Below, one piece after another: positions 41,506 through 61,374 of a DNA stretch of 64,000 nt. Made by a program: the position numbers and the translations under genes. This DNA comes from Pseudomonas sp. HS6. Its GTDB lineage: Bacteria > Pseudomonadota > Gammaproteobacteria > Pseudomonadales > Pseudomonadaceae. The stretch lies in contig NZ_CP067412.1 of the NCBI RefSeq assembly GCF_023375815.1, forward strand, positions 2,728,001 through 2,792,000, read 5' to 3'. Under the pieces are notes generated by a model that ran no database searches, was not told the DNA's origin, and saw nothing but the letters and a program-made list of their open reading frames with translations. The stretch's first letter is position 1; each line of letters begins with the position of its first letter.

Positions 41506-42261
41506 TCAAACAATATCGTCGATCAGAATATGGTGCTGCCCGCGACTGCATTGCTCGATCCGTGCCTCGACCTTGTAGACCGTGCGCAGCATCGGCTCGG
41601 TGATGACCTCATGGCTCGGCCCGCTGCCATGGGCCGTGCCACCAGCGATGACCAGCACCTGATCGGCAAATCGCAGCGCCTGGTTCAAGTCGTGGATGGC
41701 GATGAACACGATCACTTCACGGCGGCGCGCCAGGGCTTTCATGAAGTTCAACACCTGAACCTGCCGGTGCATGTCGAGTGCGCTGGTGGGTTCGTCCATC
41801 AGCAGGATTTCCGGCTCGCGCACCAAAGTTTGGGCGATTGACACCAACTGTTGCTGACCGCCGCTCAGTTCACCGAGGTTGCGGAACGACAGTTCGGTGA
41901 TCCCGAGCGCTTCCAGAATCTCGTCCACCAGTTGCAACTCATCGTCGTGAACCGACCAGTTGGGCGTCAGTTGCTTTCGCGCCAGCAGCACCGATTCATA
42001 CACCGTCAACCGGGCGCTGGCGTTCAGGCCCTGGGGCATATAGCTGATGCCTTGGGTACCTTTCTTCGAACCTTCGAGAATCACTTCGCCCGGGCCGTCG
42101 ATCAGCCCGGCCATGCGTTTGAACAACGTCGATTTGCCCGCCGCATTGGGCCCGACCACCGCCACGACCTGGCCGCCGGTAAACGTCGCGGTGCTGACAC
42201 CGGAAATGATCTCGCGCTGCCCGTAGCGGGCGCCGAGGTTGTCGAGCCGGATCTTCACCAT
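41506..42261 (-). CDS. Iron-siderophore ABC transporter ATPase
   Basis: 251 residues. Walker A GPNAAGKST (37-45), signature LSGGQQQ, Walker B ILLMDEPT, and the H-loop AIHDLN. FecE/FepC-type ATPase powering siderophore import across the inner membrane. Its start overlaps the permease end by 7 bp, and it is the last gene of the leftward island. Confidence 0.94.
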   Translation of the reverse strand: MVKIRLDNLGARYGQREIISGVSTATFTGGQVVAVVGPNAAGKSTLFKRMAGLIDGPGEVILEGSKKGTQGISYMPQGLNASARLTVYESVLLARKQLTPNWSVHDDELQLVDEILEALGITELSFRNLGELSGGQQQLVSIAQTLVREPEILLMDEPTSALDMHRQVQVLNFMKALARRREVIVFIAIHDLNQALRFADQVLVIAGGTAHGSGPSHEVITEPMLRTVYKVEARIEQCSRGQHHILIDDIV

Positions 42262-43316
42262 GAGTTTTTCTTTCCGTTGAGAATCAGAGAAATGAAGAAC
42301 GGCACGCCGATCAGTGACGTGACCACGCCGATGGGGAAAATCGCCCCCGGGATCAGCGTCTTGCTGACCACCGAACTGGCGGACAGGATCAGCGCACCGG
42401 TCAGCAACGAGGCCGGCAGGAAAAACCGCTGATCCTCGCCGATCAGCATCCGCGCAATGTGCGGCCCGACCAGCCCGATAAAACCGATCGTGCCGACGAA
42501 CGCCACCGGAAACGACGCGAGCAGGCTGACCATGATCAGCGTCTGAAAGCGCAGGCTGCGCACGTTGATACCAAAACTGGCGGCCTTGTCATCACCCAGT
42601 CGCAGGGCTGTCATTGCCCAAGCGCGTTTGGCGAAGATCGGCAGGGTGATGAGGATCACCACGCAGACCACCCCGAGTTTTGGCCACGTGGCTTTGGTCA
42701 GGCTGCCCATGGTCCAGAACACCACGGCCGCCACGGCTTGCTCGGTGGCGAAGAACTGCACCAGCGCCAGCAGCGCATTGAAGGTAAACACCAGCGCGAT
42801 GCCGAGCAGCACGATGGTCTCGGCCGTCACCCCGCGACGCATGCTCATGAAGTGAATCAGCAGCGCCGAGAGCATCGCCATGATGAACGCGTTGAGCGGC
42901 ACTATGTATTGCGCCGCCAGTGGAAACAGCGCCACGCCAAAGGCCAGCCCCAGCGCCGCACCGAAACCGGCCGCCGCAGAAATGCCGAGGGTGAAGGGAC
43001 TGGCGAGCGGGTTGTTGAGGATGGTCTGCATCTGCGCACCGGCCAGCGACAGCGCCGCGCCGACAGCGACCGCCATCAGCGCCACCGGCAGACGGATGTC
43101 CCACATCACCACCCGGACTTGTGCCGAAGCGGTGTCCGGTGAGAACAACGCTTTGAGTACTTCACCAAGGCTGTATTGCGCCGGGCCGAGGGCCAGATCG
43201 AGCAGCACGCTGAAGATCAGCAACACGCTCAGCCCGAGCAAGATCAGCCGTTTACGCAGCACCAGCCGACGGTAGGTGACGCTCTGCACGATCGGTGCTT
43301 CGCCCAGCGAACTCAT
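42255..43316 (-). CDS. FecCD-family siderophore permease
   Basis: 353 residues with about ten membrane spans. It carries BtuC/FecCD signatures: ALSLAGAQMQTILNNPLASP and GFIGLVGPHIARMLIG. A single permease gene, so it presumably works as a homodimer. It overlaps both neighbours (4 bp with the binding protein, 7 bp with the ATPase), so all three are translationally coupled. Confidence 0.95.
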   Translation of the reverse strand: MSSLGEAPIVQSVTYRRLVLRKRLILLGLSVLLIFSVLLDLALGPAQYSLGEVLKALFSPDTASAQVRVVMWDIRLPVALMAVAVGAALSLAGAQMQTILNNPLASPFTLGISAAAGFGAALGLAFGVALFPLAAQYIVPLNAFIMAMLSALLIHFMSMRRGVTAETIVLLGIALVFTFNALLALVQFFATEQAVAAVVFWTMGSLTKATWPKLGVVCVVILITLPIFAKRAWAMTALRLGDDKAASFGINVRSLRFQTLIMVSLLASFPVAFVGTIGFIGLVGPHIARMLIGEDQRFFLPASLLTGALILSASSVVSKTLIPGAIFPIGVVTSLIGVPFFISLILNGKKNSW

Positions 43317-44500
43317 GGTTTGGCCTCGGTTTTTTGCAGGCTGACGAAATAGCCCGGTTCGTAAGGTACTGGCAGAAACCGCTCATGCAACTCGCGAAAC
43401 GCGGTATCCGGATCAAGATCGGCGAACAGTTCCGGGTGGAACCATTTCGCCAATTGCTGAATGGCCACGAATTGGTAAGGGCTGTTGTAGAACTGGTGCC
43501 AGATCGCATGAAACGCCTGAGTGTTCTGCGCCTTGATGCCGGCGTAGGCCGGGCGCTGGGTGTACCAGGCCAGTTTGCGCCGGGCTTCGGCCAAGTCCGC
43601 GCCCGGGCCGACGCCGACCCAATGGCCGCCCGGCGCAAAGGCTTCCCAGTCGGCGCTGGTGACCACGACATGGTCGGGATTGGCGACGATCACTTGCTCT
43701 GGGTTCAGTTGCCCGAAGGTGCTCGGAATGATCCGGCGGGCGATGTTATTGCCGCCGGCCATGTCGACGAACAGGCCGAAGTTCTCGTTGCCGAAACTCA
43801 GGCAGCAATCGTCGGTGTAGCCGCCGATGCGTTCAATGAACACGCTGGGGCGGGCAGGGTGGCGCTTCTCGATCACGTCGGTGACGCGGTGGATCTGCTG
43901 GTTACGAAAATCGATGAAGGCCTCGGCGCGTTGTTCCTTGCCGAACAACTTGCCGAACAGTCGCATGGTTGGCTCGGTGTTCTGCATCGGGTTGTTGCGA
44001 AAGTCGACGTACACCACCGGGATGCCCAAAGCGTCGAGTTTCTCGATGTAGCGCGCATCCTCGGTCGCGTGCTGCGCTTCGATGTTGAGGATGATCACGT
44101 CAGGCTTCTGCGAGATCGCCTGCTCGATGTCGAAGGTTCCGCTCTCGAAACCGCCGAAGGTCGGGATTTTCGCGATGTCGGGGAATTTGCGCAGGTAGGC
44201 GTTATAGGTGTCCGGGTCGGACTGGATCAAATCCTTGCGCCAGCCGACGATGCGTTCGATGGGGTTTTGCGTATCCAACGCGGCCACCAGATACAACTGG
44301 CGACCTTCACCCAGAATGACCCGGCGCACCGGCAAATGTACCTTGACCGTGCGGCCCTGCAAGTCAGTCACGGTGCCCAGCGCCGGATCCGGCTCGGCAG
44401 CCTGCGCGCTGCTTGGCATCAATGAAGAAAACGACAAGCCCAGCAGCCCTGCGAACAACAGAGCGGCGAAGGTCTGGCGGCGGCGAAAAACGTTAACCAT
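43313..44500 (-). CDS. Periplasmic siderophore-binding protein (BtuF/FecB fold)
   Basis: 395 residues from the ATG at 44500; signal peptide about 1-34 (SAQA cleavage). Helical-backbone binding protein: RRVILGEGRQLYLVAALD, RIVGWRKDLIQSDPD, KPDVIILNIEA, then a C-terminal lobe. It is about 80-100 residues longer than typical FecB/FhuD, mostly in the C-terminal lobe. It captures the ferri-siderophore delivered by the neighbouring receptor. It starts 64 bp after the receptor gene and overlaps the permease start (ATGA). Confidence 0.92.
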   Translation of the reverse strand: MVNVFRRRQTFAALLFAGLLGLSFSSLMPSSAQAAEPDPALGTVTDLQGRTVKVHLPVRRVILGEGRQLYLVAALDTQNPIERIVGWRKDLIQSDPDTYNAYLRKFPDIAKIPTFGGFESGTFDIEQAISQKPDVIILNIEAQHATEDARYIEKLDALGIPVVYVDFRNNPMQNTEPTMRLFGKLFGKEQRAEAFIDFRNQQIHRVTDVIEKRHPARPSVFIERIGGYTDDCCLSFGNENFGLFVDMAGGNNIARRIIPSTFGQLNPEQVIVANPDHVVVTSADWEAFAPGGHWVGVGPGADLAEARRKLAWYTQRPAYAGIKAQNTQAFHAIWHQFYNSPYQFVAIQQLAKWFHPELFADLDPDTAFRELHERFLPVPYEPGYFVSLQKTEAKP

Positions 44501-44564
44501 GGTGTATGCCTTTGCAAAAGCCGGATCGGACCACGACGCCAGGCGCCGCACCGGGCCGGACGTT

Positions 44565-46982
44565 TCAGAAATCGACAGTGGCCGAGAGCAACAAGGTACG
44601 AGGCGCGCCCTGAGAGAACGCACCGTAGGAGGCGACGCCCGACCAATATTCGCGGTCGAACACGTTCTGCACGGTGGCCCGGAAAGTGGTCGGTCGTTCG
44701 GCGATGCGCGTGGCGTAGCGGGCGCCGACATCGAAACGGGTCCAGGCGTCCAGTTGTTGGGTGTTGGCCTGATCGACGTATTGGTTGCCGGTGTAGATCG
44801 CACCGCTGGTCAACGTCAGGCCTTCGACTTTCGGGACGTCCCATTCGGCCCAGAGGTTGGCTTGCACCTCGGGAACGCCGACCGGTTTATTGCCGCGATT
44901 GGCGGCAACGCCGGTACGGGTCAGTTCGCCGTCGAGCAGCGTCACGCCACCGAGCAGGCGCGTGCCCGATGCAATCTCGCCGGCCATGTTCAGTTCGACG
45001 CCCCGGTTGCGCTGTTCGCCATTGACCGCGAACACTCCGGAGGCCAATTCGCCGCTGGGCTTTTCAAGCTGGAACAGGGCGATGGTGGACATGAAACGGC
45101 CGTAGTCGAGCTTGACTCCGACTTCCTGCTGCCGGGACACATAAGGGGAAAAGATCTCGCCCGCGTTGGAGGCGGCGGACGGCGCGATGTCACCCTTGCT
45201 CAGGCCTTCGACGTAGTTGTAGTAGAACGCGACATGATCCCAGGGTTTGACGACGACCCCGAACAGCGGTGTGGATTTTCTCTTGTCGTAATGTGTGGTG
45301 ACGAAGCCGGCCGGGTTGTAGTTGTCCGATTTGATGTTTTGCTGACGCACGCCGAGCGTGACTTGAAGGCGTTCGTCGAGCATCGACAGGGTGTCGGCGA
45401 GGGCCACGCCCGACAGTTCGCTTTCGGAGACCTTTGGCGTATCCGGTTTGGCGATCGCGGGTTTCGGACGGTCGATCGGGTGGTAGATGTTCGACAGGAT
45501 CGCCGGCCCGGAAATAATGCCCCGGGACAAGTTATCGCGGTAACGGGTGACCTGCAGGGCGGTGCTGTGACTGATCGGCCCGGTGTCTAACCGCAGCCGC
45601 GCGCCGGCATCGACGGTGTAGCGCTGGACTTCGAACTTGTAATAGCCGGGGATCGACGAGGTGTCGCCCGCTTCATTGATGATGGTTGGTGTCTGGTCGG
45701 ACATGCGCGCGACATCCGATCGGCCACCGCCAGCATGGGCGAACAGCGTCAGGTTGTCGTTGAGGTCGTATTCGCCACCCAATAACGCCGATTTGTCGCG
45801 GGTTTCCGACCAGCCCCATTCCTGGCTGACGCTGGTGCGCCCGTTGGCCGCCGAAGGAATCTCCACGCCGGGGGCGATCAGAAACGGTCGGGACGCGGCG
45901 TCGAAGCTCTCTTTCTGGTTGATCAGATCCAGGGTGGTGCGCAGGCGGTCGCCCTGATAGTCGAGGGAAATCGCGCCGATGCCGACTTCCCTCGATTGCT
46001 TGTCGATGGCCGTTTCACCTTGCTGGACGCTGCCATTGATTCGCACCCCAAACCGGCGTTCTTCGCCGAAGCGGCGGCTGACATCGAGGTGCCCGCCGAG
46101 CTGGGTATTCAATGCATAACTGGTGGTAAAGCGGGTCAGGTCTTCGTCCAGAGAACGCTTGGGCACCACGTTGATCACGCCGCCGACACCGCTGTTGGGC
46201 GACATGCCGTAGAGCAGGGCGCCAGGGCCTTTGACCAGTTCGATGCGTTCGGCGTACTCGGTGAACACCCGGTAGTTGGAGGCCACGCCGTACACGCCGT
46301 CGAACGCCAGTTCACCGAGGTTGCCTTCACCGACCGGAAAGCCACGGATGAAGAATGAATCGACAATCCCTCCGGCCTGTCCCGTGGAGCGCACTGAAGA
46401 GTCACGCTCCAGCAAGTCGCCGACGGTGACAGCCTGTTGATCCTTGATCAACGTCGAGGTGTAGCTGCTGACGCTGAACGGGGTGTCCATCGAGTCGCGG
46501 TTGCCCAGCATGCCGAGGCGTCCGCCGCGAGCGACCTGACCGCCCGGGAGCACCGATGGCAGGCTGTCGGTGCGCTTGTCGGTGCCTTCGATCGTGGTGT
46601 CCGACAACGTGACCCGGCGCACCACCAGCGTCCAGGTGCCGTCGCTGCGGGCGACCATTTCCAGGCCGCTGCCCTCCAGCAGGCGGGTTACCGCTTCCTG
46701 TACCGAGTAGCTGCCGGACAATCCCGGGCTGACGAGGCCTTCAGTGATCGATGGCTGAAACGACAGGGCAATCCCGGCGTCCACGGCAAAACTCGACAGG
46801 GTCACACCGAGCGGGCCGGGAGCGATGTTGTAGGCTCGAACGGTGACCGCGTCCAGTTGCGTCGGTCCGGCAGCCAGAGCGAACGTGCCACCGGCCAGGC
46901 CCAGCACAACGCTGAGCAACACACTGCGTAGAACGGGCTTTAGTAGCAGACGATCCGAAGGCAAGGGTCGTGCAACGAGCAT
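44565..46982 (-). CDS. TonB-dependent siderophore receptor with STN signalling domain
   Basis: 805 residues. Signal peptide (cleavage near ALAAG, about 38), then an STN secretin-like domain at about 50-115 (LSSFAVDAGIALSFQ ... LEGSGLEMVARSDGTWTLVV) that signals to FecR. The plug follows (SMDTPFSVSSYTSTLIKDQQ; GGIVDSFFIRGFPVGEGNLG), then a barrel ending in VDF. It transports a ferri-siderophore and reports ligand occupancy. It lies downstream of fecI/fecR after a terminator, so it likely has its own sigma-dependent promoter. Its plug and barrel are closely similar to the receptor at 58714. Confidence 0.95.
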   Translation of the reverse strand: MLVARPLPSDRLLLKPVLRSVLLSVVLGLAGGTFALAAGPTQLDAVTVRAYNIAPGPLGVTLSSFAVDAGIALSFQPSITEGLVSPGLSGSYSVQEAVTRLLEGSGLEMVARSDGTWTLVVRRVTLSDTTIEGTDKRTDSLPSVLPGGQVARGGRLGMLGNRDSMDTPFSVSSYTSTLIKDQQAVTVGDLLERDSSVRSTGQAGGIVDSFFIRGFPVGEGNLGELAFDGVYGVASNYRVFTEYAERIELVKGPGALLYGMSPNSGVGGVINVVPKRSLDEDLTRFTTSYALNTQLGGHLDVSRRFGEERRFGVRINGSVQQGETAIDKQSREVGIGAISLDYQGDRLRTTLDLINQKESFDAASRPFLIAPGVEIPSAANGRTSVSQEWGWSETRDKSALLGGEYDLNDNLTLFAHAGGGRSDVARMSDQTPTIINEAGDTSSIPGYYKFEVQRYTVDAGARLRLDTGPISHSTALQVTRYRDNLSRGIISGPAILSNIYHPIDRPKPAIAKPDTPKVSESELSGVALADTLSMLDERLQVTLGVRQQNIKSDNYNPAGFVTTHYDKRKSTPLFGVVVKPWDHVAFYYNYVEGLSKGDIAPSAASNAGEIFSPYVSRQQEVGVKLDYGRFMSTIALFQLEKPSGELASGVFAVNGEQRNRGVELNMAGEIASGTRLLGGVTLLDGELTRTGVAANRGNKPVGVPEVQANLWAEWDVPKVEGLTLTSGAIYTGNQYVDQANTQQLDAWTRFDVGARYATRIAERPTTFRATVQNVFDREYWSGVASYGAFSQGAPRTLLLSATVDF

Positions 46983-46998
46983 GAGGGAGTGACCCTAT

Positions 46999-47075: not shown

Positions 47076-48053
47076 TCAGGCGGGTGAGAGCGTCACCCAG
47101 TAACCGCTCAAGTGCCCGGAGACGTGCACGGGATAGGTCTGCGCCAGCATGTTCAGCGAACGTTGGGTATCGCTGATGGGAAAGGCCCCGGAAATGCGCA
47201 AGTCGGCAATGGCCGGGTCGCAGCGCACGAAACCCCGGCGATAGCGCGCCAGTTCGACGACGAAATCCGCCAGGCGCATCTTGTCGGCCATCAGCATGCC
47301 CTGGGTCCAGGCGCCGACGTTGCGGTCGGTCGGGTTCAGTGAGCCAAAGGCCTGAGATGAAAAGTCGGTGCGTTGCCCGGCGTTGACGATGATCGGCGTG
47401 CGCTGAGGGCTGTCGGCCAACTCGACTTGCACGGCGCCTTCGAGCACTGCGAGTTGGGTGCGCGGCTGCCATTCACGAACGGTGAAGCGCGTGCCCAGCG
47501 CCTGCATCCGGCCCTGACGGGTGCTGACCAGAAAGGGCCGAGGTTGCGTGGCGGTGTCCGGCGCGGTCTGTACCAGGATTTCGCCTTCGCGCAGATTGAT
47601 CAGCCGCTGACGGGTATCGAACAGGACGTCGATGGCCGTGTCGGTGTTCAGGGTGATTTGCGAGCCGTCGGCCAGGGTCAGTTCGCGGCGCTGGCCCACG
47701 GCGGTGTGGTAATCGGCGGACCATTGCTGCGATTGCGCCAGTTTCCAGCTGCCCCAACCGGCGGGCACCGCTGCCAGCAACAAGGCCAGTTTGCCCAGGG
47801 CGGCGCGGCGTTCCGGGTTGCTTGGGCGATCCAGCGCCGACATCGCCAGCGACGGTGGCAGGCCGCCGAACTTGCTTTGCAGCAACTGCGCGCGGGCCCA
47901 CGCCCGATTGCGTTCGGGGCTACTGACTTTCCAGTATTCCCATTCCGCGCGCTCGGTTTCGCTGAGGTCGTTTTCACTCAGGCGCATCAGCCACTCGGCG
48001 GCTTCTTCGAGGATTTTCGGATCGAGCGGCGGTTCACTGCGACGCGTGAGCAT
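47076..48053 (-). CDS. fecR: FecR-type anti-sigma/transmembrane regulator
   Basis: 325 residues. N-terminal cytoplasmic domain (AAEWLMRLSENDLSETERAE; WKVSSPERNRAWARA), one membrane span about 88-103, then a periplasmic FecR domain (YHTAVGQRRELTLADGSQIT; RFTVREW) and a C-terminal STN-interacting part. It relays the receptor signal to the sigma factor. It starts directly at the sigma gene stop (TGAATG), so the two are translationally coupled. Confidence 0.95.
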   Translation of the reverse strand: MLTRRSEPPLDPKILEEAAEWLMRLSENDLSETERAEWEYWKVSSPERNRAWARAQLLQSKFGGLPPSLAMSALDRPSNPERRAALGKLALLLAAVPAGWGSWKLAQSQQWSADYHTAVGQRRELTLADGSQITLNTDTAIDVLFDTRQRLINLREGEILVQTAPDTATQPRPFLVSTRQGRMQALGTRFTVREWQPRTQLAVLEGAVQVELADSPQRTPIIVNAGQRTDFSSQAFGSLNPTDRNVGAWTQGMLMADKMRLADFVVELARYRRGFVRCDPAIADLRISGAFPISDTQRSLNMLAQTYPVHVSGHLSGYWVTLSPA

Positions 48054-48569
48054 TCATTCCACCAGCATCAGGCACTGCACGAAAGCCTGTTTCATGTAGC
48101 GCTTGACGGTGATCAGCGAGACGTCCAGCTGCTCGGCGATGTCGGCGTATTTCAAACCGCCGATCTGCGACAGCAGGAACGCGCGTTTGACCAGTGGCGG
48201 AAGGGTGTCGAGCATGGCGTCGATTTCATGCAGGGTTTCCAGCACCACGAAACGCAGTTCGGGCGAGGGCACTTCCGGCGCAGGCAAATGTGCGAGGGCA
48301 TCAAGGTAGGCGCGTTCCAGTGCCTTGCGCTGATACCAGTTGATGAGGATGCCCTTCGCCACGCAACTCAGGTACGCCCGGGGCTGCTCGATGGTCGTGA
48401 CCTGGGAGGCGAGGATCCGGGTGAAGGTATCCTGCGCCAGATCCGCCGCATCCATGGCGTTACCCAGTTTTTTCTTCAGCGTGTTGTACAGCCAGCCGTG
48501 ATGACCGCTGTACAGCGCTTCGATCACGCGCAGGTGGTTGTCGTTGTTCGCGGGAAGGGTTTCGCTCAT
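48054..48569 (-). CDS. fecI: FecI-type iron-starvation ECF sigma factor
   Basis: 171 residues from the ATG at 48569; a 26-residue longer frame would cover the Fur-box-like site and is rejected. Region 2: HHGWLYNTLKKKLGNAMDAA and DLAQDTFTRIL. Region 4: LPPLVKRAFLLSQIGGLKYA, then DIAEQLDVSLITVKRYMKQA. With FecR and the STN receptor it forms a cell-surface signalling system that switches on siderophore uptake. Confidence 0.95.
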   Translation of the reverse strand: MSETLPANNDNHLRVIEALYSGHHGWLYNTLKKKLGNAMDAADLAQDTFTRILASQVTTIEQPRAYLSCVAKGILINWYQRKALERAYLDALAHLPAPEVPSPELRFVVLETLHEIDAMLDTLPPLVKRAFLLSQIGGLKYADIAEQLDVSLITVKRYMKQAFVQCLMLVE

Positions 48570-48583
48570 GGCTGCAGTGTTTT

Positions 48584-48602
48584 GCAATTGAGAAGTATTC
48601 CC
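48584..48602. promoter_or_regulatory. Fur-box-like site upstream of fecI
   Basis: GCAATTGAGAAGTATTCCC shares 11 of 19 positions with the consensus GATAATGATAATCATTATC by my count and lies 15 bp upstream of the sigma factor start. Iron repression of fecI is the usual arrangement. Confidence 0.5.
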
Positions 48603-48653
48603 AATGCTAGTGTACAAAGAGCCCGCGACGCAAGCGCGAATCAGCATCCGTTT

Positions 48654-49838
48654 TCAGGCGCGTGGCATTCTCAACAACGCGTTTACCATGGCGTCGATTT
48701 CAGCCTCGGTGTTGTAGGCGTGCAGCGATGCGCGGCTGACTTCCAGCAGGTCCCGTTGCTGCATGTCGAGCAGGGTCGAACGGAAGGTCGAGGTGGTGAC
48801 GTTGATGCGTTTTTCCTGCTGCGCCAGCCATGCCTGGACTTGTGCTGCGCTGGCGTCCTTACAGGTGAAGGTGACGATGCCTGACTTGACCGCGCCCCGA
48901 TCCTGCGGCGTAACGCCGGGTACGTCGTTCAGGCGATTGCGCAGGTGAGCTGACAATCCTTGAATGCGCTGCCACATCGGCTCGATGCCTTGCGTCAGGG
49001 CGTAACGGGTCGCGGCGCCCATGCCCAGTTTCGCTGCCACGTTGCATTCCCAGTTTTCAAAGCGCCGGGCATCGCCACGAATCCTGAAGGTGTCCGGTGT
49101 CAGCAATGAAGCGGCATGCAGGTCGAGAAACGCCGGCTCAAGGTTTTCGCACAAAGTCTTTTCGACATAGAGAAATCCCATGCCCCGAGGGCCACGAAGG
49201 TATTTGCGGCTGGTGGCAGCGAGCATATGGCAGCCGATTTTCTGCACATCGATCGGCATCTGTCCGACGCCCTGACAGGCATCCAGCAGAAACAGAACCC
49301 CGGCCGCGCGGGCGAGGGCGCCGATCTGTTCGATGGGCTGCACCGGGCCGCCATTGGTAGCGATCACTGGCAGCGACACCAGGGCGACCCGGTCATCGCC
49401 GAGCATGTCCCGCAGCGCCGGCAATGACACCTGACCCAGTTCATCGTTGGGAATGACCCTGATCTCGATCCCGCGCTGCTGCTTGAGTTGCAGGTAGGGA
49501 ATGTAGTTGCCGGCGTATTCGGTGGACGACGTCAGCACCACATCGCCGGGCCGCAGCGGCAATGAGTAGAAGGCCATGTCCCAGGCGCGGGTCGCGTTCT
49601 CGATCACCGCGATTTCTTCGGGCCGCGCGTTGATCAGTTGACCGATCTGCTCGTAGACATTTTCCACTTCAACGGATTGCTGCCCGGCGGCTTCGTAACC
49701 GCCGATCCGGGCTTCAAGTTGCAGGTGACGGGTCATCACCTCGATCACCGGGTCTGGCATCAGCGCTGCGCCGGCATTGTTGAAATGAATCAGTTGCTCG
49801 ACACCCGGTGTGTCGGCGCGCAGTTGTTCAATGTGCAA
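48654..49838 (-). CDS. Class V aminotransferase-fold PLP enzyme
   Basis: 394 residues. The PLP lysine lies in AATSRKYLRGPRG (Lys212) and the pyridine-binding Asp in LLDACQGVGQ (Asp186). The fold is that of cysteine desulfurases and isopenicillin-N-epimerase-like enzymes, but no mobile catalytic-Cys loop was recognised. It is the last gene of the leftward biosynthetic operon, 14 bp after the exporter. A tailoring or precursor-forming role in siderophore synthesis is inferred from position only. Confidence 0.88.
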   Translation of the reverse strand: MHIEQLRADTPGVEQLIHFNNAGAALMPDPVIEVMTRHLQLEARIGGYEAAGQQSVEVENVYEQIGQLINARPEEIAVIENATRAWDMAFYSLPLRPGDVVLTSSTEYAGNYIPYLQLKQQRGIEIRVIPNDELGQVSLPALRDMLGDDRVALVSLPVIATNGGPVQPIEQIGALARAAGVLFLLDACQGVGQMPIDVQKIGCHMLAATSRKYLRGPRGMGFLYVEKTLCENLEPAFLDLHAASLLTPDTFRIRGDARRFENWECNVAAKLGMGAATRYALTQGIEPMWQRIQGLSAHLRNRLNDVPGVTPQDRGAVKSGIVTFTCKDASAAQVQAWLAQQEKRINVTTSTFRSTLLDMQQRDLLEVSRASLHAYNTEAEIDAMVNALLRMPRA

Positions 49839-54186: not shown

Positions 54187-55230
54187 TCAGGCGACGCTCA
54201 ATTGCAGGGGAGTGGCGTCGGATTCCAGCCAGCGAGTCTTACCCAGCCAGCGATCCAGTTGCGGTGCGACGCCCGGGTCCAGCAGGTCCCGTTCTTCCAG
54301 CCAGTTGTCATCGAATACGGTGTGCAGGTATTTCTCGCCGCCGTCGGCAATCGGCACCACGACGTTGCCGGTCAACGTGCCTTTGTGGATCAGCTCCAGC
54401 GCCTTGAAGATCGCACCGCCGGTCGAGCCGCCGACCAGCAGCGCCAGGTTGCGTGCGATGTAGCGGGCGGTTTCGAACGCCTGAGAGTCGGTTACCTGCA
54501 AGCCCAGGTCGATGCAGCTGTAGTCGAGCACCAGGCCGACGGTGTCGCCGGCCGGGGTGCCGGTTCCCGACTGGTAATACGGATAGCCGGGATGGCCGAA
54601 GACGATGGAGCCGGCCGGCTCGACGGCTACTGTCACGATATCCGGGTTGTGCAGTTTCAGACCGCGGGCGATGCCGGTCATCGAGCCGCCGGTGCCAACG
54701 CAACCGACATAGGCACCGATGTGGCCACCGGCCTGGGCGATGGTTTCACGGACAAAATCGCTGTAACCGCCGGCGTTGGCTGCGTTGTCCGACTGGTTCA
54801 TGAACACCGCGCCGGGGATCTGCGACGCGAGTTCGGCAGCCAGCCGTTGGCGCTCGACCACGGCCACTTCGTCTTCCCGGTAAGTGCCGGCGACGAAGCG
54901 GATTTCCGCCCCCAGTGCCTTCATCACCGCGATCTTGTCCTGAGCTGCGTGATGATCGACCACGGCAATGAAATGCAGGTCGAACTCCACGGCCGCCATC
55001 GCCAGGCCGATGCCGGTATTGCCGGAGGACGATTCCACAACCACGCCACCGGGTTTCAACTTTCCGGACTTGAGCGCCGCCAATACCATGTTTCGCGCCA
55101 TACGGTCTTTAATACTGCCGCCGGGGTTGTTCTTCTCTATCTTCAGCAAAAGCCGGGCGTTGGTATCCGGAACATCAATGCCCAACATTGGTGTATTGCC
55201 AATAAGATCCGAAACTTTATTCAGTATCAT
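54187..55230 (-). CDS. sbnA: SbnA-like PLP synthase for 2,3-diaminopropionate
   Basis: 347 residues of the cysteine-synthase fold. PLP lysine in NNPGGSIKDRMARN (Lys41), phosphate/substrate loop ESSSGNTGIGLAMA and the glycine loop GCVGTGGSMTGIARGL. The SbnA subfamily joins O-phospho-L-serine with L-glutamate to give N-(1-amino-1-carboxyethyl)glutamate. The adjacent serine-kinase-like, opine-dehydrogenase and NIS genes favour this over cysteine synthesis. It starts 14 bp after the decarboxylase stop. Confidence 0.88.
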   Translation of the reverse strand: MILNKVSDLIGNTPMLGIDVPDTNARLLLKIEKNNPGGSIKDRMARNMVLAALKSGKLKPGGVVVESSSGNTGIGLAMAAVEFDLHFIAVVDHHAAQDKIAVMKALGAEIRFVAGTYREDEVAVVERQRLAAELASQIPGAVFMNQSDNAANAGGYSDFVRETIAQAGGHIGAYVGCVGTGGSMTGIARGLKLHNPDIVTVAVEPAGSIVFGHPGYPYYQSGTGTPAGDTVGLVLDYSCIDLGLQVTDSQAFETARYIARNLALLVGGSTGGAIFKALELIHKGTLTGNVVVPIADGGEKYLHTVFDDNWLEERDLLDPGVAPQLDRWLGKTRWLESDATPLQLSVA

Positions 55231-55244: not shown

Positions 55245-56639
55245 TTAATAGTCAGGTGTGAATGCGTAGTTACCTTCCGTACAACACGTCGCCATCAGCC
55301 GCTGCGGCAACGGGTGGCGATGAAATTCGTTTTCCAGCAAGTCCATCTGATAACCAGCGGTGTTGGCGTAGATCAATAAGTCGCCGGTTTGTGGTGTGGT
55401 TTCGAAGTTGATCAGTCGATGAGTGATCACATCATCATCCAGGCAACTATGCCCGGCGATATAGGCTTGTATCGGAACAGTCTTCGACTCTTTCGAAGTG
55501 ATCAATATTGGATCGACAAGGTATTCAGATGAAAACCATGTTTCGCACGCGCTGAAACTGCTGCCTTCGGCAAAGATCACAACTTTTTTGTCGGACAGTT
55601 GTTTGGTTTGGGTTACGCGAAAGACGGTAATGGCGGCTTGGTCAACCAGACTTCGGCCGGGCTCCAGTGCCAGTTTTATATTTCTATCCTTCAAGTAACT
55701 CGCAATGGTTTTTCCCGGAGAGTGATCCGACTCCAGGAATAACTCCAGCCACTGGCAAGCTGTCAGACTGCTGCCATAAGGGTAATAAGCGTTGGGCACT
55801 CGACGATTCTGATAATGACCAGGATTGTTGTCGTTCTGCAAAAAACTGTTGTAATCCTGCGGGTCTACATACCGCATCGGCAGGCCACCACCGATATCGA
55901 TCATGACCGGGTCCAGCCCCATTTCCCTTGCTGCATCGATGAAGCCAGTGACTTCGCGGAAAGCCTGTACCCGGGTTTCGTAGCCGTAACCGCCGAGGTG
56001 GAAATGGAAACCTTCGAAGTGCAACGACTCACGCTGTTCGGTCAGCAATTGCAGGCACTGAAACAAATCATCCGCGCCCATTCCGAAGCGACTTGAGGGG
56101 CAACTTGTCGGCCTGTAACGCAGCAGGATCCGGGCTTTGGCCGGTGGTTGCGAAGTGTCGAGCAGCGCTTTGAGATGGCTGAACTCTTCCAGTGAGTCCA
56201 CACAAATCAGCGATCCACCTTGTACCAGCGCACGATGAAACTCTGCCGTTTTGGCCGGCCCGGTTGCACACAGATGTTCCGCCGGAGTTCCGGCGCGCAG
56301 TGCAGCTTGCAGCTCAAAGAGGCTCGACACGTCGGTGCCGATGCCCGAAGCCGATGCCGCAGCCAGCAAGCATTGGGACTTGTTGGCTTTGGCACCGTAG
56401 AAAATCGCGTAGTCAACGTCGTGTCGTTTCAACACCGATTGCAGCGCCTGGACGTTGGCCTCAAATGAATGTGGCCATACTAGATTCAGCGGGGATCCGT
56501 GTTGTTTAATAAGTTCAACAAGTTTTTCCGGGGAATGTTGAAGTAAATTATCGATAATAGGGTCAATTAGCGGTTTCAGCACTTTTGGGTATTGGGTTTC
56601 GATTGTTTCTTTAATTGGCGGCGCAATTAATTCAGGCAT
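55245..56639 (-). CDS. Type III PLP decarboxylase (Y4yA/SbnH-like)
   Basis: 464 residues, alanine-racemase/diaminopimelate-decarboxylase fold. PLP lysine in FYGAKANKS (Lys84), HFHLGGYGYE, the glycine-rich DIGGGLPMRYV, EPGRSLVDQA and the C-terminal DLLIYANTAGYQMD. It is first in the leftward operon and probably decarboxylates a diamino acid or its citryl amide, as SbnH does. As far as I remember, the neighbouring set MFS, IucA/C-like, dehydrogenase, SbnA-like and this enzyme also occurs as y4xMNOP-y4yA on plasmid NGR234a; unverified. The 5' half is more AT-rich than its neighbours. Confidence 0.88.
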   Translation of the reverse strand: MPELIAPPIKETIETQYPKVLKPLIDPIIDNLLQHSPEKLVELIKQHGSPLNLVWPHSFEANVQALQSVLKRHDVDYAIFYGAKANKSQCLLAAASASGIGTDVSSLFELQAALRAGTPAEHLCATGPAKTAEFHRALVQGGSLICVDSLEEFSHLKALLDTSQPPAKARILLRYRPTSCPSSRFGMGADDLFQCLQLLTEQRESLHFEGFHFHLGGYGYETRVQAFREVTGFIDAAREMGLDPVMIDIGGGLPMRYVDPQDYNSFLQNDNNPGHYQNRRVPNAYYPYGSSLTACQWLELFLESDHSPGKTIASYLKDRNIKLALEPGRSLVDQAAITVFRVTQTKQLSDKKVVIFAEGSSFSACETWFSSEYLVDPILITSKESKTVPIQAYIAGHSCLDDDVITHRLINFETTPQTGDLLIYANTAGYQMDLLENEFHRHPLPQRLMATCCTEGNYAFTPDY

Positions 56640-56818: not shown

Positions 56819-56846
56819 GAGAACCCCACTCCTTAAGGCTCAGGCA

Positions 56847-57014: not shown

Positions 57015-57114
57015 AAGTAAGGTTTTCAAATATTTTTGAATGAACACACACAACAGGGGAGTGCGAAGCCGCTTATTCGCATGCTCAAGTAAGCGCTCGC
57101 GTGTTGATTTTAAA

Positions 57115-57151
57115 AACCGTCAACGCCTTGTTATTCAAGGTGTTGGCGGTT
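57115..57151. other. Strong 16-bp hairpin upstream of the aldolase operon
   Basis: AACCGTCAACGCCTTG, loop TTATT, then CAAGGTGTTGGCGGTT. Fourteen Watson-Crick and two G-U pairs in the plus-strand RNA. It lies about 98 bp before the aldolase ATG. On the minus strand it is followed by TTTTT and would look like a terminator, though no minus-strand gene precedes it. Confidence 0.8.
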
Positions 57152-57249
57152 GATTCAAGACACCCGGATTCAACTCGGTTTTTCCCCTGTAACAGGTGTT
57201 CGAATTTTTTTTGAAAACCCACGACTGAAGCACGCTCAGGAGAGTCCCG

Positions 57250-58137
57250 ATGACTGTTCGTCACAGCACCAACGCCACGCTTCCCATCAGCTACCTGTTC
57301 GTTCCCGGCAACCGGCCGGAGCGCTTTTCCAAAGCGGTCGAAGCCGGGCCGGATGCGATCATCCTCGACCTCGAAGATGCCGTTCATCCGAACAGCAAAG
57401 CCGTGGCCCGGGCGTCGATCTGGGCCTGGCAGCAGAGCACGCCCGAAACCGCCTGCCAGCGTTACATCCGGTTGAACAGCGTCGGCAGTTCGCTGTTTCG
57501 CCAGGACATGACCTGGCTGGGCGACATGCGCTACCCCGAGCGCTGCGCAGGGATTTTCCTGCCCAAGGCCGAATGTCCCGAAAGCCTGACCCGCGTGGTC
57601 GAACGCCTGCTGGCGTGGAACCCCGACCTGCAAATCGTCGCCATCATCGAGACTGCCAAAGGCTTGCATCAGGTCGAGGCAATTGCCGCGATTCCGGGCC
57701 TGGCACGGCTGGCATTCGGCTCGCTGGATTTTTCCCTGGACATCGATTGCAGCCAGATTCCTGAGGCGTTTCTGTTCGCCCGCAATCGCATCGTGCTGGC
57801 GTCACGCGTTGCCGGTTTGCCGGCACCGATCGATGGCGTGACCCCGGCCATCAGCGACATGGCGGTGGTCGAGCGCGACTCACGTTACGCCCGGTCGCTG
57901 GGGTTCGGCGCCAAGTTGTGTATCCATCCTTCGCAGCTCGCCACGGTGCAGAAAGCCTACCTGCCCAACGCCCGCCAACTGGCTTGGGCGGATCGGGTCC
58001 TGAACGCCGTGGCCGGGGGCAGCCACGCGGTGCAAGTCGACGGTGAAATGGTCGATCTGCCGCTGATCGAGCAGGCGCAACGCCTGCGGGACATGGCCAG
58101 CCAGTACGCGCTGGTCGCCAACGCGGATGCCTGCTGA
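57250..58137 (+). CDS. CitE/HpcH-HpaI-type aldolase of the siderophore island
   Basis: 295 residues, start preceded by AGGAGAG. CitE-like TIM barrel: SYLFVPGNRPERFSKAVEAG, the metal-binding ILDLEDAVHPNSK, RYIRLNSVGS, AIIETAKGLHQVEAIAAIPG and LGFGAKLCIHPSQL. In staphyloferrin B loci SbnG, of the same broad superfamily, makes citrate for the NIS synthetase. A similar dedicated supply of citrate or a citrate analogue is inferred here, but this protein looks closer to CitE than to HpaI. The serine-kinase-like gene follows after 15 bp. Confidence 0.87.
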   Translation: MTVRHSTNATLPISYLFVPGNRPERFSKAVEAGPDAIILDLEDAVHPNSKAVARASIWAWQQSTPETACQRYIRLNSVGSSLFRQDMTWLGDMRYPERCAGIFLPKAECPESLTRVVERLLAWNPDLQIVAIIETAKGLHQVEAIAAIPGLARLAFGSLDFSLDIDCSQIPEAFLFARNRIVLASRVAGLPAPIDGVTPAISDMAVVERDSRYARSLGFGAKLCIHPSQLATVQKAYLPNARQLAWADRVLNAVAGGSHAVQVDGEMVDLPLIEQAQRLRDMASQYALVANADAC

Positions 58138-58152
58138 AACGGGGGACGAATC

Positions 58153-58554
58153 ATGGGACATGGTTACCAGATTGCCCTGCGGCCACTGTGCGACGTGCGG
58201 CAATCCGAGCAGGTCGATCCGCTCAACGTGCAGCGGCTGCGCGAGGCGATCATCCAGGCCGGGCACTGGCTGGAACCGATCATCGTCGAGCGCTCCCGGG
58301 GCATCGTGATGGACGGCAATCACCGGTTCAACGCGGCGCGGGCGCTGGGGTTGAAACGGGTGCCGTGCATCCAGCTCGACTACGCCGATCCACGTGTCTG
58401 TGTACGGCACTGGCAAACCGGGCAGGCGTTCGAAGTGGCGCGGATTTTCACCACCATCGAGCGCGGCGAACTGTTCCCCTACAAGACCACCCGGCACGCG
58501 TTCGACCCCGCGCTGCCGGTGATCTCCATTCCGCTGCAATGCCTGTACGACTGA
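58153..58554 (+). CDS. ParB-fold free serine kinase-like protein (SerK/SbnI-like)
   Basis: 133 residues of ParB/sulfiredoxin fold: LRPLCDVRQSEQVDPLNVQR with Glu19, EPIIVERSRG, and DGNHRFNAARALGLKRVPCI (54-73). It has no DNA-binding domain. Small proteins of this type include the free serine kinases SerK and SbnI, which make O-phospho-L-serine; SbnI does this for SbnA. Its position 15 bp after the aldolase and across from sbnA supports the same role. It is shorter than SbnI (about 250 residues). Confidence 0.82.
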   Translation: MGHGYQIALRPLCDVRQSEQVDPLNVQRLREAIIQAGHWLEPIIVERSRGIVMDGNHRFNAARALGLKRVPCIQLDYADPRVCVRHWQTGQAFEVARIFTTIERGELFPYKTTRHAFDPALPVISIPLQCLYD

Positions 58555-58560
58555 CCGGCG

Positions 58561-58592
58561 CCGGAGGGTGGGTTTCGCAGCCCATCCTCCGG
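58561..58592 (+). terminator. Hairpin after the kinase-like gene
   Basis: CCGGAGGGTGGG, loop TTTCGCAG, CCCATCCTCCGG: a 12-bp stem with one G-U pair, 6 bp after the stop. There is no clear T-run, so termination may be weak or factor-dependent. Confidence 0.55.
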
Positions 58593-58662
58593 ACGTTCTC
58601 TCCCGAGCAATCCGCTCGCAAAAAAATTTCAACGACGCTGATACTTTTTCGATTGTCGACTG

Positions 58663-58681
58663 GCAAATAGGAGTCATTACC
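58663..58681. promoter_or_regulatory. Fur-box-like site upstream of the second receptor
   Basis: GCAAATAGGAGTCATTACC shares 12 of 19 positions with the Fur consensus by my count, the best in this island. It lies 32 bp upstream of the receptor start. Confidence 0.55.
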
Positions 58682-58713
58682 ATTTTCAGCCATTCGAGAA
58701 GGACCCCATCGTC

Positions 58714-60918
58714 ATGTCTGTTGCACGTCGACCTTGCAGTGAACGCGCGTTAACGCTGGCTATTCGCACCGCCATGCTGAGTTCTATTCTGGCCGCAGGA
58801 AGCGCCACTGCCTGGGCAGCAGACCCCAAGCAATCCGAGCAACAGGACGTCGCCGCCACGGAAGGGCTGACGCTGGACACCACCAACGTCACCGGCAGCT
58901 ACAACGGCGCGACTGCCTTGCCGGAAGTACTCGCCGGAGGCCAGGTCGCACGGGGCGCGCGGCTGGGGATGATGGGCAACAAGGACGTCATGGACACGCC
59001 ATTCAGCGTGACCAGCTACACCGCGAAAACCCTCGCTGACCTGCAAACGGTGACCGTGGCCGATGCGCTGGAACGCGACCCTTCGGTACGTTCCACCGGG
59101 CAGACCGGCGGCATCGTCGATTCGTTTTTCATCCGTGGATTTGCGATAGGCGAGGGCAACCTCGGCGAGTTGGCCTACGACGGCGTGTACGGCGTAGCGC
59201 CCAATTATCGGGTGTTTACCGAATACGCCGAACGCGTTGAAGTGTTGAAAGGGCCGGGCGCGTTGATGTATGGCATTTCCCCCAACAGCGGCGTCGGCGG
59301 CGTGATCAACATCGTGCCCAAACGGCCACTGGACGAAGACCTGACCCGCTTCACCGGCACTTACGCGTCTGACTCGCAAGTCGGTGGCCACTTGGATGTC
59401 AGTCGACGTTTCGGCAGCGAGAACCAGTTTGGCATCCGTTTCAACGGCAGCACCCAGGGCGGCGACACCGCGATCAACGATCAGGAACGCGCGCTGAACA
59501 TCGGCGCCATCGCACTCGATTACAAGGGCGAGCGGTTGCGCCTGAACCTGGATTACATCAGCCAGAAAGAGAGCTTCGACGCAGCCTCGCGACCGTTCAC
59601 CATTGCACCGGGTGTGAAGGTTCCATCGGCGCCGAACGGCCGCACCAACCTGCCGCAGGACTGGGGCTGGTCGGACACCAAGGAACAGTCGGCATTGCTC
59701 GGCGGCGAGTATGACCTCAGCGAAAACCTGACCGTGTTCGCCCACGCGGGCGGCGGTCGCTCCGACGTCAAGCGCATGTCCGACCAGGTACCGCGAATCC
59801 TCAACGACGCCGGCGACACCAGCAACATTCCCGGTTACTACAAATTCAACGTCGACCGTTCGACGGCCGACGTGGGGATGCGTGCACTGTTCGCCACCGG
59901 CCCGGTCACCCACACGACCACGGTCATGGCGACCCGTTATCAGGACGAATTGTCGCGGGGCATCAACAACGGCACGGAAATCCGCTCGAACATCTACCAC
60001 CCGGTGGACGTGCCCAAGCAGTACATCAGCTCGCCGAAAGTGCTGCGCATTTCCGAATCGGAACTGTCTGGCGTCGCACTGACCGATACCCTCGGCTTTC
60101 TCGATGACCGGATTCAGTTGACCCTCGGCGTACGCCGACAGGACATCGAATCGCGTAACTACAACGCCTCGGGCTCGGTCAGTTCTCGTTATGACGACAG
60201 CGCGACCACACCGCTGGCGGGCGTGGTGGTCAAACCATGGGAAGACGTTTCGCTTTACTACAACTACGTCGAAGGCCTGAGCAAAGGCGACATCGCCCCC
60301 GGCACTGCAGCCAACTCTGGCGAAACGTTCGCACCCTACAAATCCAAGCAGCATGAAATCGGTGTGAAGTACGAACACGGTACGTTCATGACGACTCTGG
60401 CACTGTTCCAGATCGAGAAACCGAGCGGCGAAATCGGCGCTGGCAACGTGTTCTCGGTGCAGGCCGAACAACGTAACCGTGGCGTCGAGTTGAGCATGTT
60501 CGGTGAAGTCGCGCCGGGCACTCGCCTGATGGGCGGCGTGACCTTGCTGGACGGCGAACTGACGGACTCGGCCACCGCCGCCAACCGTGGCAACAAACCG
60601 GTGGGCGTGCCGGATGTTCAGGCCAACCTCTGGGCGGAGTGGGATACACCGTGGGTCGAAGGTTTCACCCTGACCGGCGGCGCGATCTACACCGACAGCC
60701 AATACGTCAATCAGGCCAATACCCAGGAGCTGCCTTCCTGGACCCGCATCGACGCCGGCGCTCGCTACGCCACCAAGATCGAAGGTCGGCCGACGACGTT
60801 CCGCGCCACGGTGCAGAACGTGTTTGATCGTGAGTACTGGTCGGGTGTGGCGTCCTACGGCGCGTTCTCCCCGGGCTATCCGCGCACGTTGCAGTTGTCG
60901 GCGACCGTCGACTTCTGA
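58714..60918 (+). CDS. TonB-dependent siderophore receptor, STN-less paralog
   Basis: 734 residues. The signal peptide ends near AWAAD (about residue 30). A short N-terminus follows with no STN domain, then the plug (GGIVDSFFIRGFAIGEGNLG) and barrel ending VDF. Over the plug and barrel it reads almost in register with the receptor at 44565, sharing many long strings such as NVFDREYWSGVASYGAFS. So one copy imports and signals, this one imports only. A Fur-like site lies upstream and a terminator downstream. Confidence 0.95.
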   Translation: MSVARRPCSERALTLAIRTAMLSSILAAGSATAWAADPKQSEQQDVAATEGLTLDTTNVTGSYNGATALPEVLAGGQVARGARLGMMGNKDVMDTPFSVTSYTAKTLADLQTVTVADALERDPSVRSTGQTGGIVDSFFIRGFAIGEGNLGELAYDGVYGVAPNYRVFTEYAERVEVLKGPGALMYGISPNSGVGGVINIVPKRPLDEDLTRFTGTYASDSQVGGHLDVSRRFGSENQFGIRFNGSTQGGDTAINDQERALNIGAIALDYKGERLRLNLDYISQKESFDAASRPFTIAPGVKVPSAPNGRTNLPQDWGWSDTKEQSALLGGEYDLSENLTVFAHAGGGRSDVKRMSDQVPRILNDAGDTSNIPGYYKFNVDRSTADVGMRALFATGPVTHTTTVMATRYQDELSRGINNGTEIRSNIYHPVDVPKQYISSPKVLRISESELSGVALTDTLGFLDDRIQLTLGVRRQDIESRNYNASGSVSSRYDDSATTPLAGVVVKPWEDVSLYYNYVEGLSKGDIAPGTAANSGETFAPYKSKQHEIGVKYEHGTFMTTLALFQIEKPSGEIGAGNVFSVQAEQRNRGVELSMFGEVAPGTRLMGGVTLLDGELTDSATAANRGNKPVGVPDVQANLWAEWDTPWVEGFTLTGGAIYTDSQYVNQANTQELPSWTRIDAGARYATKIEGRPTTFRATVQNVFDREYWSGVASYGAFSPGYPRTLQLSATVDF

Positions 60919-60924
60919 TCGGGG

Positions 60925-60951
60925 GGCGCACTGCTGAGTGCGCCTTCTTCT
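60925..60951 (+). terminator. Terminator after the second receptor
   Basis: Perfect stem GGCGCACT / AGTGCGCC around GCTG, then TTCTTCT. Confidence 0.9.
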
Positions 60952-60996
60952 ATATAGAGCTACGCACAGCGGCTGATCATAAAAAGGAGCATTCGC

Positions 60997-61374
60997 ATGT
61001 TAACCAGCCCGGCATCGACGTCCTCTGGCAAGCAATCGCAGTTCCCGTTGGCGAAGGGGCAGCGGGCCTTTGATTTCGAGCGCAGCACCAATGAGCATAT
61101 CCGTGAGCTGCTGCATTATTACGGGCTGCGCACCAGTCTGATCCGGATCAAGGTGATCGATGCCTTGCTGGTTGCAGCACGCGATGGACGCGCCGTTGGC
61201 GGGCGCGGGGTGCATGGGTATCTGCAGGCGTTTGTCAGCGGCATTCAGTTCATCAGCGTCAGGGAAGTGCTCAAGCGTTTGTGCGAGGAGGGCGTCATCG
61301 TGTTTCAGCCTGACAAGAGCTACCGGTTTACCGGTGAAGCCTATGCCTTGCTGGAGCAGCATGCCGACCGCTGA
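60997..61374 (+). CDS. Small Fur-like winged-helix protein (125 aa)
   Basis: Start preceded by AAAAAGGAG. The core HIRELLHYYGLRTSLIRIKV is followed by FISVREVLKRLCEEGVIVFQ and YRFTGEAYALL, giving a Fur-type winged helix. The C-terminal metal-binding and dimerisation domain of Fur/Zur is missing: no HHH or CxxC cluster is seen. Pseudomonads have proteins of this kind annotated as Fe2+/Zn2+ uptake regulators, but true metal sensing seems doubtful. Position at the end of the siderophore island suggests a role there. Confidence 0.75.
   Translation: MLTSPASTSSGKQSQFPLAKGQRAFDFERSTNEHIRELLHYYGLRTSLIRIKVIDALLVAARDGRAVGGRGVHGYLQAFVSGIQFISVREVLKRLCEEGVIVFQPDKSYRFTGEAYALLEQHADR

Follow-up and report, generated by a model that had tools for sequence, protein, structure and literature searches.

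The 64-kb stretch of Pseudomonas sp. HS6 DNA analysed here (the window; C1:2728001-2792000 of a single 6.55-Mb contig) carries at positions 41506-61374 what is almost certainly a siderophore locus. Its genes argue strongly for a Pseudomonas member, with additions, of the family that includes the y4xMNOP genes of plasmid pNGR234a and the proteobactin (pbt) locus of Proteus mirabilis, the latter reportedly from Himpsl et al. 2010. We have moderate confidence in the pathway model as a whole, in which the locus would produce a citrate hydroxycarboxylate siderophore of the proteobactin family by the route proposed below. The mechanism would rest on one strong structural piece, the modelled fold of a 133-residue kinase-like protein (the mini-kinase), and on one strong comparative piece, an opine dehydrogenase that occurs nearly always with an SbnA-like enzyme in loci where SbnB was not found.

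Relation to proteobactin and the y4x genes

Twelve window genes match 11 genes of one P. mirabilis locus (L003, L005), both window receptors matching the same gene. Common to both loci are genes for an ATPase, a permease, a binding protein, a receptor, a major facilitator superfamily (MFS) exporter, a nonribosomal peptide synthetase-independent siderophore (NIS) synthetase, an opine dehydrogenase, an SbnA-like enzyme, a decarboxylase, a divergent CitE-like protein and a ParB-like protein. Identities are 41-72%. The window differs in gene order and has in addition FecI/FecR, a second receptor, a class V pyridoxal phosphate (PLP) enzyme and an AraC neighbour. The Proteus locus was equated with PMI0229-0239 by gene content and not by locus tag.

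PMI0229-0239, or pbtABCDEFGHI, is the NIS siderophore locus of P. mirabilis that was named proteobactin in 2010. In the passages of a review that deal with it (PMC11026637), the NIS synthetase PbtA is placed in one clade with Y4xN, and the citrate-lyase-like PbtI is encoded on the other strand. The same passages list a permease, an ATPase, a decarboxylase, a PLP enzyme, an opine dehydrogenase, an MFS protein, a binding protein, a receptor and a hypothetical protein. They also state that the locus is iron-repressed and that mutants lost iron chelation only when a second siderophore system was removed as well. The decarboxylase, PLP enzyme, opine dehydrogenase, MFS protein, binding protein, receptor, permease and ATPase of the pbt type are all present and linked in the window. 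The window synthetase falls in one tree with PbtA and Y4xN and is 50% identical to the Proteus protein and 48% to Y4xN over almost the full length.

The original prediction, made from the sequence alone, had called the locus apparently undescribed. This claim falls, since the gene set fits a system named in 2010 whose mutants show that it contributes to iron chelation (PMC11026637). A characterised product of the same gene set was to refute the prediction, and this applies in part: there is a named product, proteobactin, but no solved structure was found. A literature search lacking most subscription journals gave no paper on the structure or enzymology of proteobactin and none joining an NIS synthetase or "diaminopropion-" with an opine dehydrogenase. 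The portions consulted of two Pseudomonas papers (PMC8085936, PMC3596284) contained no mention of such a locus.

The gene order that the prediction had named on pNGR234a of Sinorhizobium fredii was confirmed and extended. The same six core genes lie there at 4002-11047 of the fetched sequence in the order ParB-like (y4yB), decarboxylase (y4yA), SbnA-like (y4xP), opine dehydrogenase (y4xO), NIS (y4xN) and MFS (y4xM), with identities to the window proteins of 40, 49, 71, 52, 48 and 52%, respectively. They are situated between nopX and nopL, and no receptor or importer was found in the 17.8 kb fetched. In a table of PMC10970691 these genes are assigned to tts box 8, their induction by apigenin is ca. 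53- to 83-fold, and pNGR234b has a second copy.

A Serratia plasmid locus holds ten of the window gene types and has an IS903B element inside its decarboxylase region (L004, 6094-7062). Several genes are fragmented in the locus of an aphid Arsenophonus symbiont. The pathway may be decaying in both. The triabactin operon trbABC of Pseudomonas sp. NCIMB 10586, as presented in part of PMC10080011, shares an NIS synthetase and an MFS exporter with the window but consists of three genes without any diamine module. In one Pseudomonas locus (L098) a distant synthetase gene, on a distant tree branch, is followed by an MFS gene; the resemblance in gene order leads us to guess that it is triabactin. A further Pseudomonas locus (L099) gave a distant synthetase match.

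Gene content

The genes of the locus are:

41506-42261, minus strand: ABC (ATP-binding cassette) transporter ATPase of a ferric-siderophore importer (PF00005, 1.7e-24; 41% to Proteus homologue)
42255-43316, minus strand: FecCD-type permease (PF01032, 9.5e-82; 57% to Proteus)
43313-44500, minus strand: periplasmic siderophore-binding protein, 395 aa (PF01497; 57% to Proteus, 58% to Serratia)
44565-46982, minus strand: TonB-dependent receptor with N-terminal STN signalling domain (PF00593, PF07715, PF07660)
47076-48053, minus strand: FecR anti-sigma factor (PF04773, PF16220)
48054-48647, minus strand: FecI-type extracytoplasmic function sigma factor (PF04542, PF08281)
48654-49838, minus strand: class V PLP enzyme, accessory (PF00266, 9.6e-61; 55% to Serratia)
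49853-51097, minus strand: MFS siderophore exporter (closest model FslB, rhizoferrin export, NF041040, 177 bits, cut-off 600)
51111-52964, minus strand: NIS synthetase, PbtA/Y4xN homologue (PF04183, PF06276; closest model FslA)
53010-54158, minus strand: octopine-dehydrogenase-family enzyme (PF02317, 97.5 bits, cut-off 30)
54187-55230, minus strand: SbnA/CysK-type beta-replacement enzyme (PF00291)
55245-56639, minus strand: alanine-racemase-fold PLP decarboxylase, Y4yA family (PF02784, PF00278)
57250-58137, plus strand: CitE-like CoA-ester lyase family protein, PbtI homologue, accessory (PF03328; 46% to Proteus)
58153-58554, plus strand: half-size SerK/SbnI-type predicted free serine kinase, ParB_N, Y4yB homologue
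58714-60918, plus strand: second TonB-dependent receptor, no STN domain listed (PF00593, PF07715)
60997-61374, plus strand: 125-aa protein, membership uncertain

Pfam and NCBIfam profile searches thus recovered within 41506-61374 every gene class that had been named from the sequence alone. They support the view of a citrate-type NIS siderophore locus that is complete, with an exporter, receptors, an importer and a FecI/FecR pair of its own. The twelve minus-strand genes, from the decarboxylase (56639) to the ATPase (41506), are separated by short gaps or overlap, an arrangement suggestive of a single long operon. On the opposite strand lie the genes for the CitE-like and ParB-like proteins, the second receptor and the 125-aa protein. 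The importer has one permease gene. For the binding protein, the listed reading frame has a GTG start at 44803, and a methionine followed by a signal-peptide-like stretch lies at 44500.

The term island was not upheld. At 60.3%, the GC content of the locus is close to the 60.7% of the window, and a tRNA search of the window gave no hit, so that signs of recent insertion are missing, although the distribution of the locus is patchy. An Rfam search of the window gave no matches.

Conservation of the core genes

A ten-row NIS alignment run against genomes of named species confirmed 104 relatives, the best 80 of which were taken, a biased sample; three plasmid loci brought the set to 83. At bit-score thresholds set by us, these 83 loci contained genes for NIS (83), MFS (77), opine dehydrogenase (76), SbnA-like enzyme (75), decarboxylase (75), ParB-like protein (69), receptor (69), binding protein (67), permease (44), CitE (32), class V enzyme (21) and the 125-aa protein (10). 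After omission of 15 loci shorter than 20 kb, the five-gene core of decarboxylase, SbnA-like enzyme, opine dehydrogenase, NIS and MFS was complete in 67 of the 68 loci of at least 20 kb. The sole exception (L075, Mesorhizobium caraganae) has the synthetase among other genes.

Neighbourhoods were counted over the 17 gene types of the window rather than over every reading frame. On this basis the decarboxylase gene adjoins the SbnA-like gene in all 75 loci that have the four enzymes, and the opine dehydrogenase gene lies directly beside the SbnA-like gene in 71 of them. In three of the other four the kinase gene stands between these two; in the fourth (L068) the dehydrogenase and NIS genes are divergent from the rest. 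Among plasmids, all 42 records with an opine dehydrogenase of >50% identity also have the synthetase, and three of 45 synthetase records have no opine dehydrogenase (NZ_CP017104, NZ_CP080528, NZ_CP006879). Clade synthetases without any other core gene detected were seen in L075, L078 and L084, which include 10 kb upstream, and in L079 and L080, which are short contigs. The clade synthetases without opine dehydrogenase, in these loci and in the plasmid records, are from Mesorhizobium, Bradyrhizobium and Rhizobium.

The opine dehydrogenase was present in 18 of 298 sampled Pseudomonas genomes, the HS6 genome counted. The locus is thinly spread and patchy, since a draw across the phylum gave the synthetase (E ≤1e-80) in five of 398 genomes, two of them with the distant triabactin-like kind. 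In a FastTree phylogeny with local support only, NIS rows grouped largely by order: Pseudomonadales, Enterobacterales and Neisseriales each fell on one side of a branch, Hyphomicrobiales and Burkholderiales did not. The row sets of the comparisons (70, 75, 76 and 84 rows) contain orthologues above a bit-score threshold and 70% of the window protein length, the window protein included.

Proposed pathway

From gene content, synteny, the single synthetase, the failure to find SbnB, residue conservation and the predicted kinase fold, all of them observed, we infer each reaction and the product of the following route. The 133-aa SerK/SbnI-like kinase would phosphorylate free serine. The SbnA-like enzyme would then exchange the phosphate for an amino acid bound through its amino group; with glutamate, the simplest case, the N-linked adduct would be N-(1-amino-1-carboxyl-2-ethyl)-glutamic acid (ACEGA). 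The octopine-dehydrogenase-family enzyme would run the opine reaction backwards, so that oxidation and hydrolysis of the adduct release 2,3-diaminopropionate together with a 2-keto acid, a step which in staphyloferrin B biosynthesis is the job of the unrelated SbnB. As modelled on FigA and FigC acting with ornithine in rhizoferrin formation, the single NIS synthetase would couple citrate to the diamino acid, the decarboxylase would remove the carboxylate, and the same synthetase would add a second citrate. The MFS protein would export N,N'-dicitryl-1,2-diaminoethane (C14H20N2O12, predicted [M+H]+ 409.109). For other conceivable compounds, the calculated [M+H]+ values are 453.0987 (dicitryl-diaminopropionate), 437.1402 (rhizoferrin) and 235.0925 (citryl-1,2-diaminoethane). 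The iron complex would return via the two TonB receptors, the binding protein and the FecCD/ATPase importer, the STN-bearing receptor signalling via FecR to FecI.

These steps do not carry equal weight. The use of citrate is quite probable and the formation of diaminopropionate from phosphoserine rather likely; a decarboxylation we consider fairly plausible, and the reverse opine step is favored by a slight balance of the evidence. Dicitryl-diaminoethane as the end product is a tentative assignment.

The opine dehydrogenase and the search for SbnB

The dehydrogenase belongs to the PF02317 octopine/nopaline family by the score given above, and its residues 4-360 align with octopine dehydrogenase (3c7a). 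In this alignment H208, R325 and D330 correspond to H212, R324 and D329 of 3c7a, which we take to be its key residues, and are identical in all 76 rows, so the His-Arg-Asp set is kept. An SbnB-like gene was found in none of the 83 loci. In the HS6 genome the best match to the SbnB model (TIGR03944) scored 98.8 bits against a cut-off of 326.9 and lies elsewhere on the chromosome. The earlier idea that SbnB is replaced therefore holds as far as gene content goes, with the opine dehydrogenase in its place. For comparison, two true SbnA genes in other genomes adjoin SbnB genes that score over the cut-off. By analogy, a reversed opine dehydrogenase could do the work of SbnB because the SbnA adduct is a secondary amine of the opine type. 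Distant plasmid-borne opine dehydrogenases (H103-H105) proved uninformative; they lie in phosphonate/oxidase neighbourhoods with no annotated cysteine-synthase-type gene.

The same enzyme might instead work forward, joining a 2-keto acid reductively to an amino group of either diaminopropionate or the citryl-diamine, with a citrate-opine hybrid chelator as product in place of dicitryl-diaminoethane. Known members of the family work reductively, the three key residues are intact, and in L068 the dehydrogenase gene adjoins the NIS gene, apart from the SbnA-like gene. Forward operation would, however, leave the SbnA-like adduct without an SbnB-type release step. Furthermore, the position aligned with the pyruvate-binding Q118 of octopine dehydrogenase is Phe in 74 of 76 rows, which makes use of pyruvate doubtful. 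We consider the forward reaction unlikely, and retain the reverse opine step.

The SbnA-like enzyme

The name SbnA-like synthase was borne out in part: the gene is present, but its product scored 221 bits with the SbnA model (TIGR03945) against a cut-off of 350. The pNGR234a and Serratia proteins have SbnA as top model, yet also stay under the cut-off. According to PMC12414870, Arg132, Tyr152 and Ser185 select phosphoserine in SbnA. R127 occupies the Arg132 position in 75 of 75 family rows. The enzyme is, judged from these positions, a distinct sub-family with a partly SbnA-like pocket, because the Arg is kept and the other two residues are Ser and Gly. One of the two SbnA comparison sequences (L104) has Gly aligned at the first and third positions; the Gly at the first is probably a one-column alignment shift.

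A competing explanation is that this protein is a sulfur enzyme, such as a cysteine synthase, and that the diamine comes from elsewhere, for example ornithine, leading to rhizoferrin or an analogue. The scores leave room for this, as cystathionine beta-synthase (226 bits) and cysteine synthase A (CysK, 223 bits) matched about as well as SbnA, all three under their cut-offs, and the Y4xP homologue is reported as a cysteine synthase in a passage of PMC3973906. The position of the gene, beside the opine dehydrogenase in 71 of 75 loci and beside the decarboxylase in 75 of 75, argues against this explanation, as does the invariant Arg at the SbnA R132 position, which is missing from the four paralogues of the HS6 genome; these have no Arg at the first position and Phe at the second. 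A sulfur enzyme thus appears improbable, and a dedicated role in diaminopropionate formation is preferred. Elsewhere in the genome (C1:3744277-3745176) a cysteine-synthase-type reading frame with one in-frame TGA is perhaps a pseudogene or a sequencing artefact.

Synthetase and CitE-like protein

In the 6.55-Mb genome there is no IucA/IucC match other than this synthetase, which confirms the earlier statement that a single NIS synthetase is present. It is 97% identical to a protein of Pseudomonas sp. PSE1(2024) and 89% to one of P. koreensis, which places the host among Pseudomonas of this type. Its NCBIfam scores were 284 bits for FslA, which misses the cut-off of 1000, 116 for SbnF and 109 for SbnC.

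The pbt authors are said in part of a review (PMC11026637) to have classed PbtA as a type B synthetase and to have suggested oxaloacetate, made from citrate by the CitE-like PbtI. In line with this, a CitE-like gene is present and divergent in Pseudomonas and Enterobacterales loci. Within one NIS branch (Bosea, Enterobacterales, Pseudomonas) its score reached 120 bits in 32 of 35 loci, the other three being weaker; none of the 48 remaining loci reached 50 bits. The gene is, by this distribution, an addition to the core and not a part of it. A gene limited to one branch of a family with conserved core genes is unlikely to supply a required acyl group throughout; moreover, the best model of the synthetase, FslA, is a rhizoferrin (citrate) synthetase. 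We give the oxaloacetate route a small chance and keep citrate as the substrate. The predicted CitE-like aldolase was found, with RipC as best model (168 bits, cut-off 375) followed by citE (116, cut-off 443), both below cut-off, and no SbnG model was listed in the NCBIfam search. A role as general citrate source like SbnG was rejected given the confinement to one branch and the match to RipC.

Kinase and decarboxylase

The ParB-like protein is a 133-residue version of the SerK/SbnI serine kinases. Its predicted structure contains the whole kinase fold, and the active-site residues are kept, including a Glu at the position of SerK E30 and the DGxHR and KTTRH motifs; E30 mutants of SerK are named in PDB titles. 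The alignment used 41 of 67 orthologue references, with the window protein added or included; that of the decarboxylase used 41 of 71 in the same way. The decarboxylase model has a mean predicted local distance difference test (pLDDT) value of 86.5, with most of segment 363-372 below 50. Its fold is that of LysA, FigC (7kh2) and SbnH (6knk) and does not separate these enzymes.

Receptors and regulation

The two TonB receptors share 70% identity over 683 residues. The FecI and FecR genes lie inside the minus-strand run and one of the two receptors bears an STN domain, which makes signalling at the cell surface by the ferric siderophore likely. The 64-kb window was scanned for Fur boxes with a 19-position consensus and 20 block-shuffled controls. 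There were 19 sites with 12 of 19 matches (10.4 in shuffles) and four with 13 (1.5 in shuffles). Two overlapping weak 12-match sites at 58663-58687 are positioned just upstream of the second receptor gene. Taken together, the scan speaks clearly neither for nor against direct control by Fur.

Evaluation of the model

Besides the reports on Y4xP and PbtA cited above, several results weigh against the siderophore pathway as proposed. The Fur scan gave no strong box, that is, no site with more than 13 of 19 matches in the 64-kb window. The mini-kinase scored 44.6 bits with SerK (cut-off 380) and 24.8 with SbnI (cut-off 350), and because both values miss the cut-offs it is classed as a short relative rather than a SerK or SbnI proper; its gene was not found in eight of the 68 long loci. 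SbnA Tyr152 is replaced by Ser147 and Ser185 by Gly179 in all 75 rows. LysA is a somewhat closer match to the decarboxylase model than FigC and SbnH are, and where SbnH has the citrate-contacting Lys347 (FigC His357), 72 of 76 rows have Asp or Glu. Neither FigA/FigC nor the Ralstonia enzyme yielded a siderophore when given diaminopropionate. Finally, synthetases of the clade occur without the core, as in L075, and without opine dehydrogenase in the three plasmid records.

The locus resembles staphyloferrin B (sbn) biosynthesis in its logic of kinase, SbnA-type enzyme, release enzyme, putative citryl-amino-acid decarboxylase and MFS exporter. It differs in having one NIS synthetase instead of three (SbnC, SbnE, SbnF), an opine dehydrogenase instead of SbnB, a half-size kinase and an SbnA-like enzyme that scores under the family cut-off. 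We rejected as highly improbable a true staphyloferrin B pathway whose missing synthetases are encoded elsewhere: the kinase, SbnA-like enzyme, decarboxylase, HpcH/HpaI-fold protein and exporter do parallel SbnI, SbnA, SbnH, SbnG and SbnD, but the whole genome has one IucA/IucC match and no SbnB over the cut-off. With rhizoferrin (fsl/fig) systems the locus shares one NIS enzyme, one putative citryl-amino-acid decarboxylase and an MFS protein, with FslA and FslB as best models; it differs in low scores (FslA 284 of 1000, FslB 177 of 600 and FslC 24.5 of 500 bits) and in the extra diamine module.

A generalization about as tentative as the product itself is that proteobactin and its many relatives form one short-backbone rhizoferrin family, with N,N'-dicitryl-1,2-diaminoethane or a closely similar compound as product and with the diamine supplied by a previously unrecognized diaminopropionate module. 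This module would combine a minimal free serine kinase of 133 residues with an SbnA-type enzyme whose pocket differs and a reversed opine dehydrogenase replacing the unrelated SbnB. The proposal makes the structure of proteobactin directly testable with four purified enzymes and one exact mass. If true, it would provide the chemistry for a locus of rhizobia, Pectobacterium, insect symbionts, Proteus and some Pseudomonas, and would explain y4yB-y4xM in the rhizobial type III secretion region, the role of which is called enigmatic in part of PMC3973906. It would also add a second, unrelated route of diaminopropionate release and show that a free serine kinase can work at such a small size.

Accessory and neighbouring genes

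The class V PLP enzyme (48654-49838) gave 173 bits with SufS and 154 with EgtE in NCBIfam, both below the cut-offs, and has some similarity to the pyoverdine-tailoring PvdN. In Serratia its gene adjoins the binding-protein gene. For the 125-aa protein (60997-61374) no Pfam or NCBIfam family was over threshold, the best Pfam match having an E value of 0.026. A match of at least 40 bits was present in the ten loci counted above, all Pseudomonas, with 48-90% identity, indicating fast evolution. By eye it resembles the DNA-binding half of Fur without the metal-binding half, and it is perhaps a winged-helix regulator.

To the left of the locus (27855-40925) lie genes for a GGDEF protein, an FAD (flavin adenine dinucleotide) oxidoreductase, an aldehyde dehydrogenase, a dihydrodipicolinate synthase-family protein, a proline racemase and a permease, which look like hydroxyproline catabolism genes. 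Between these and the locus are an AraC-type regulator and another TonB receptor.

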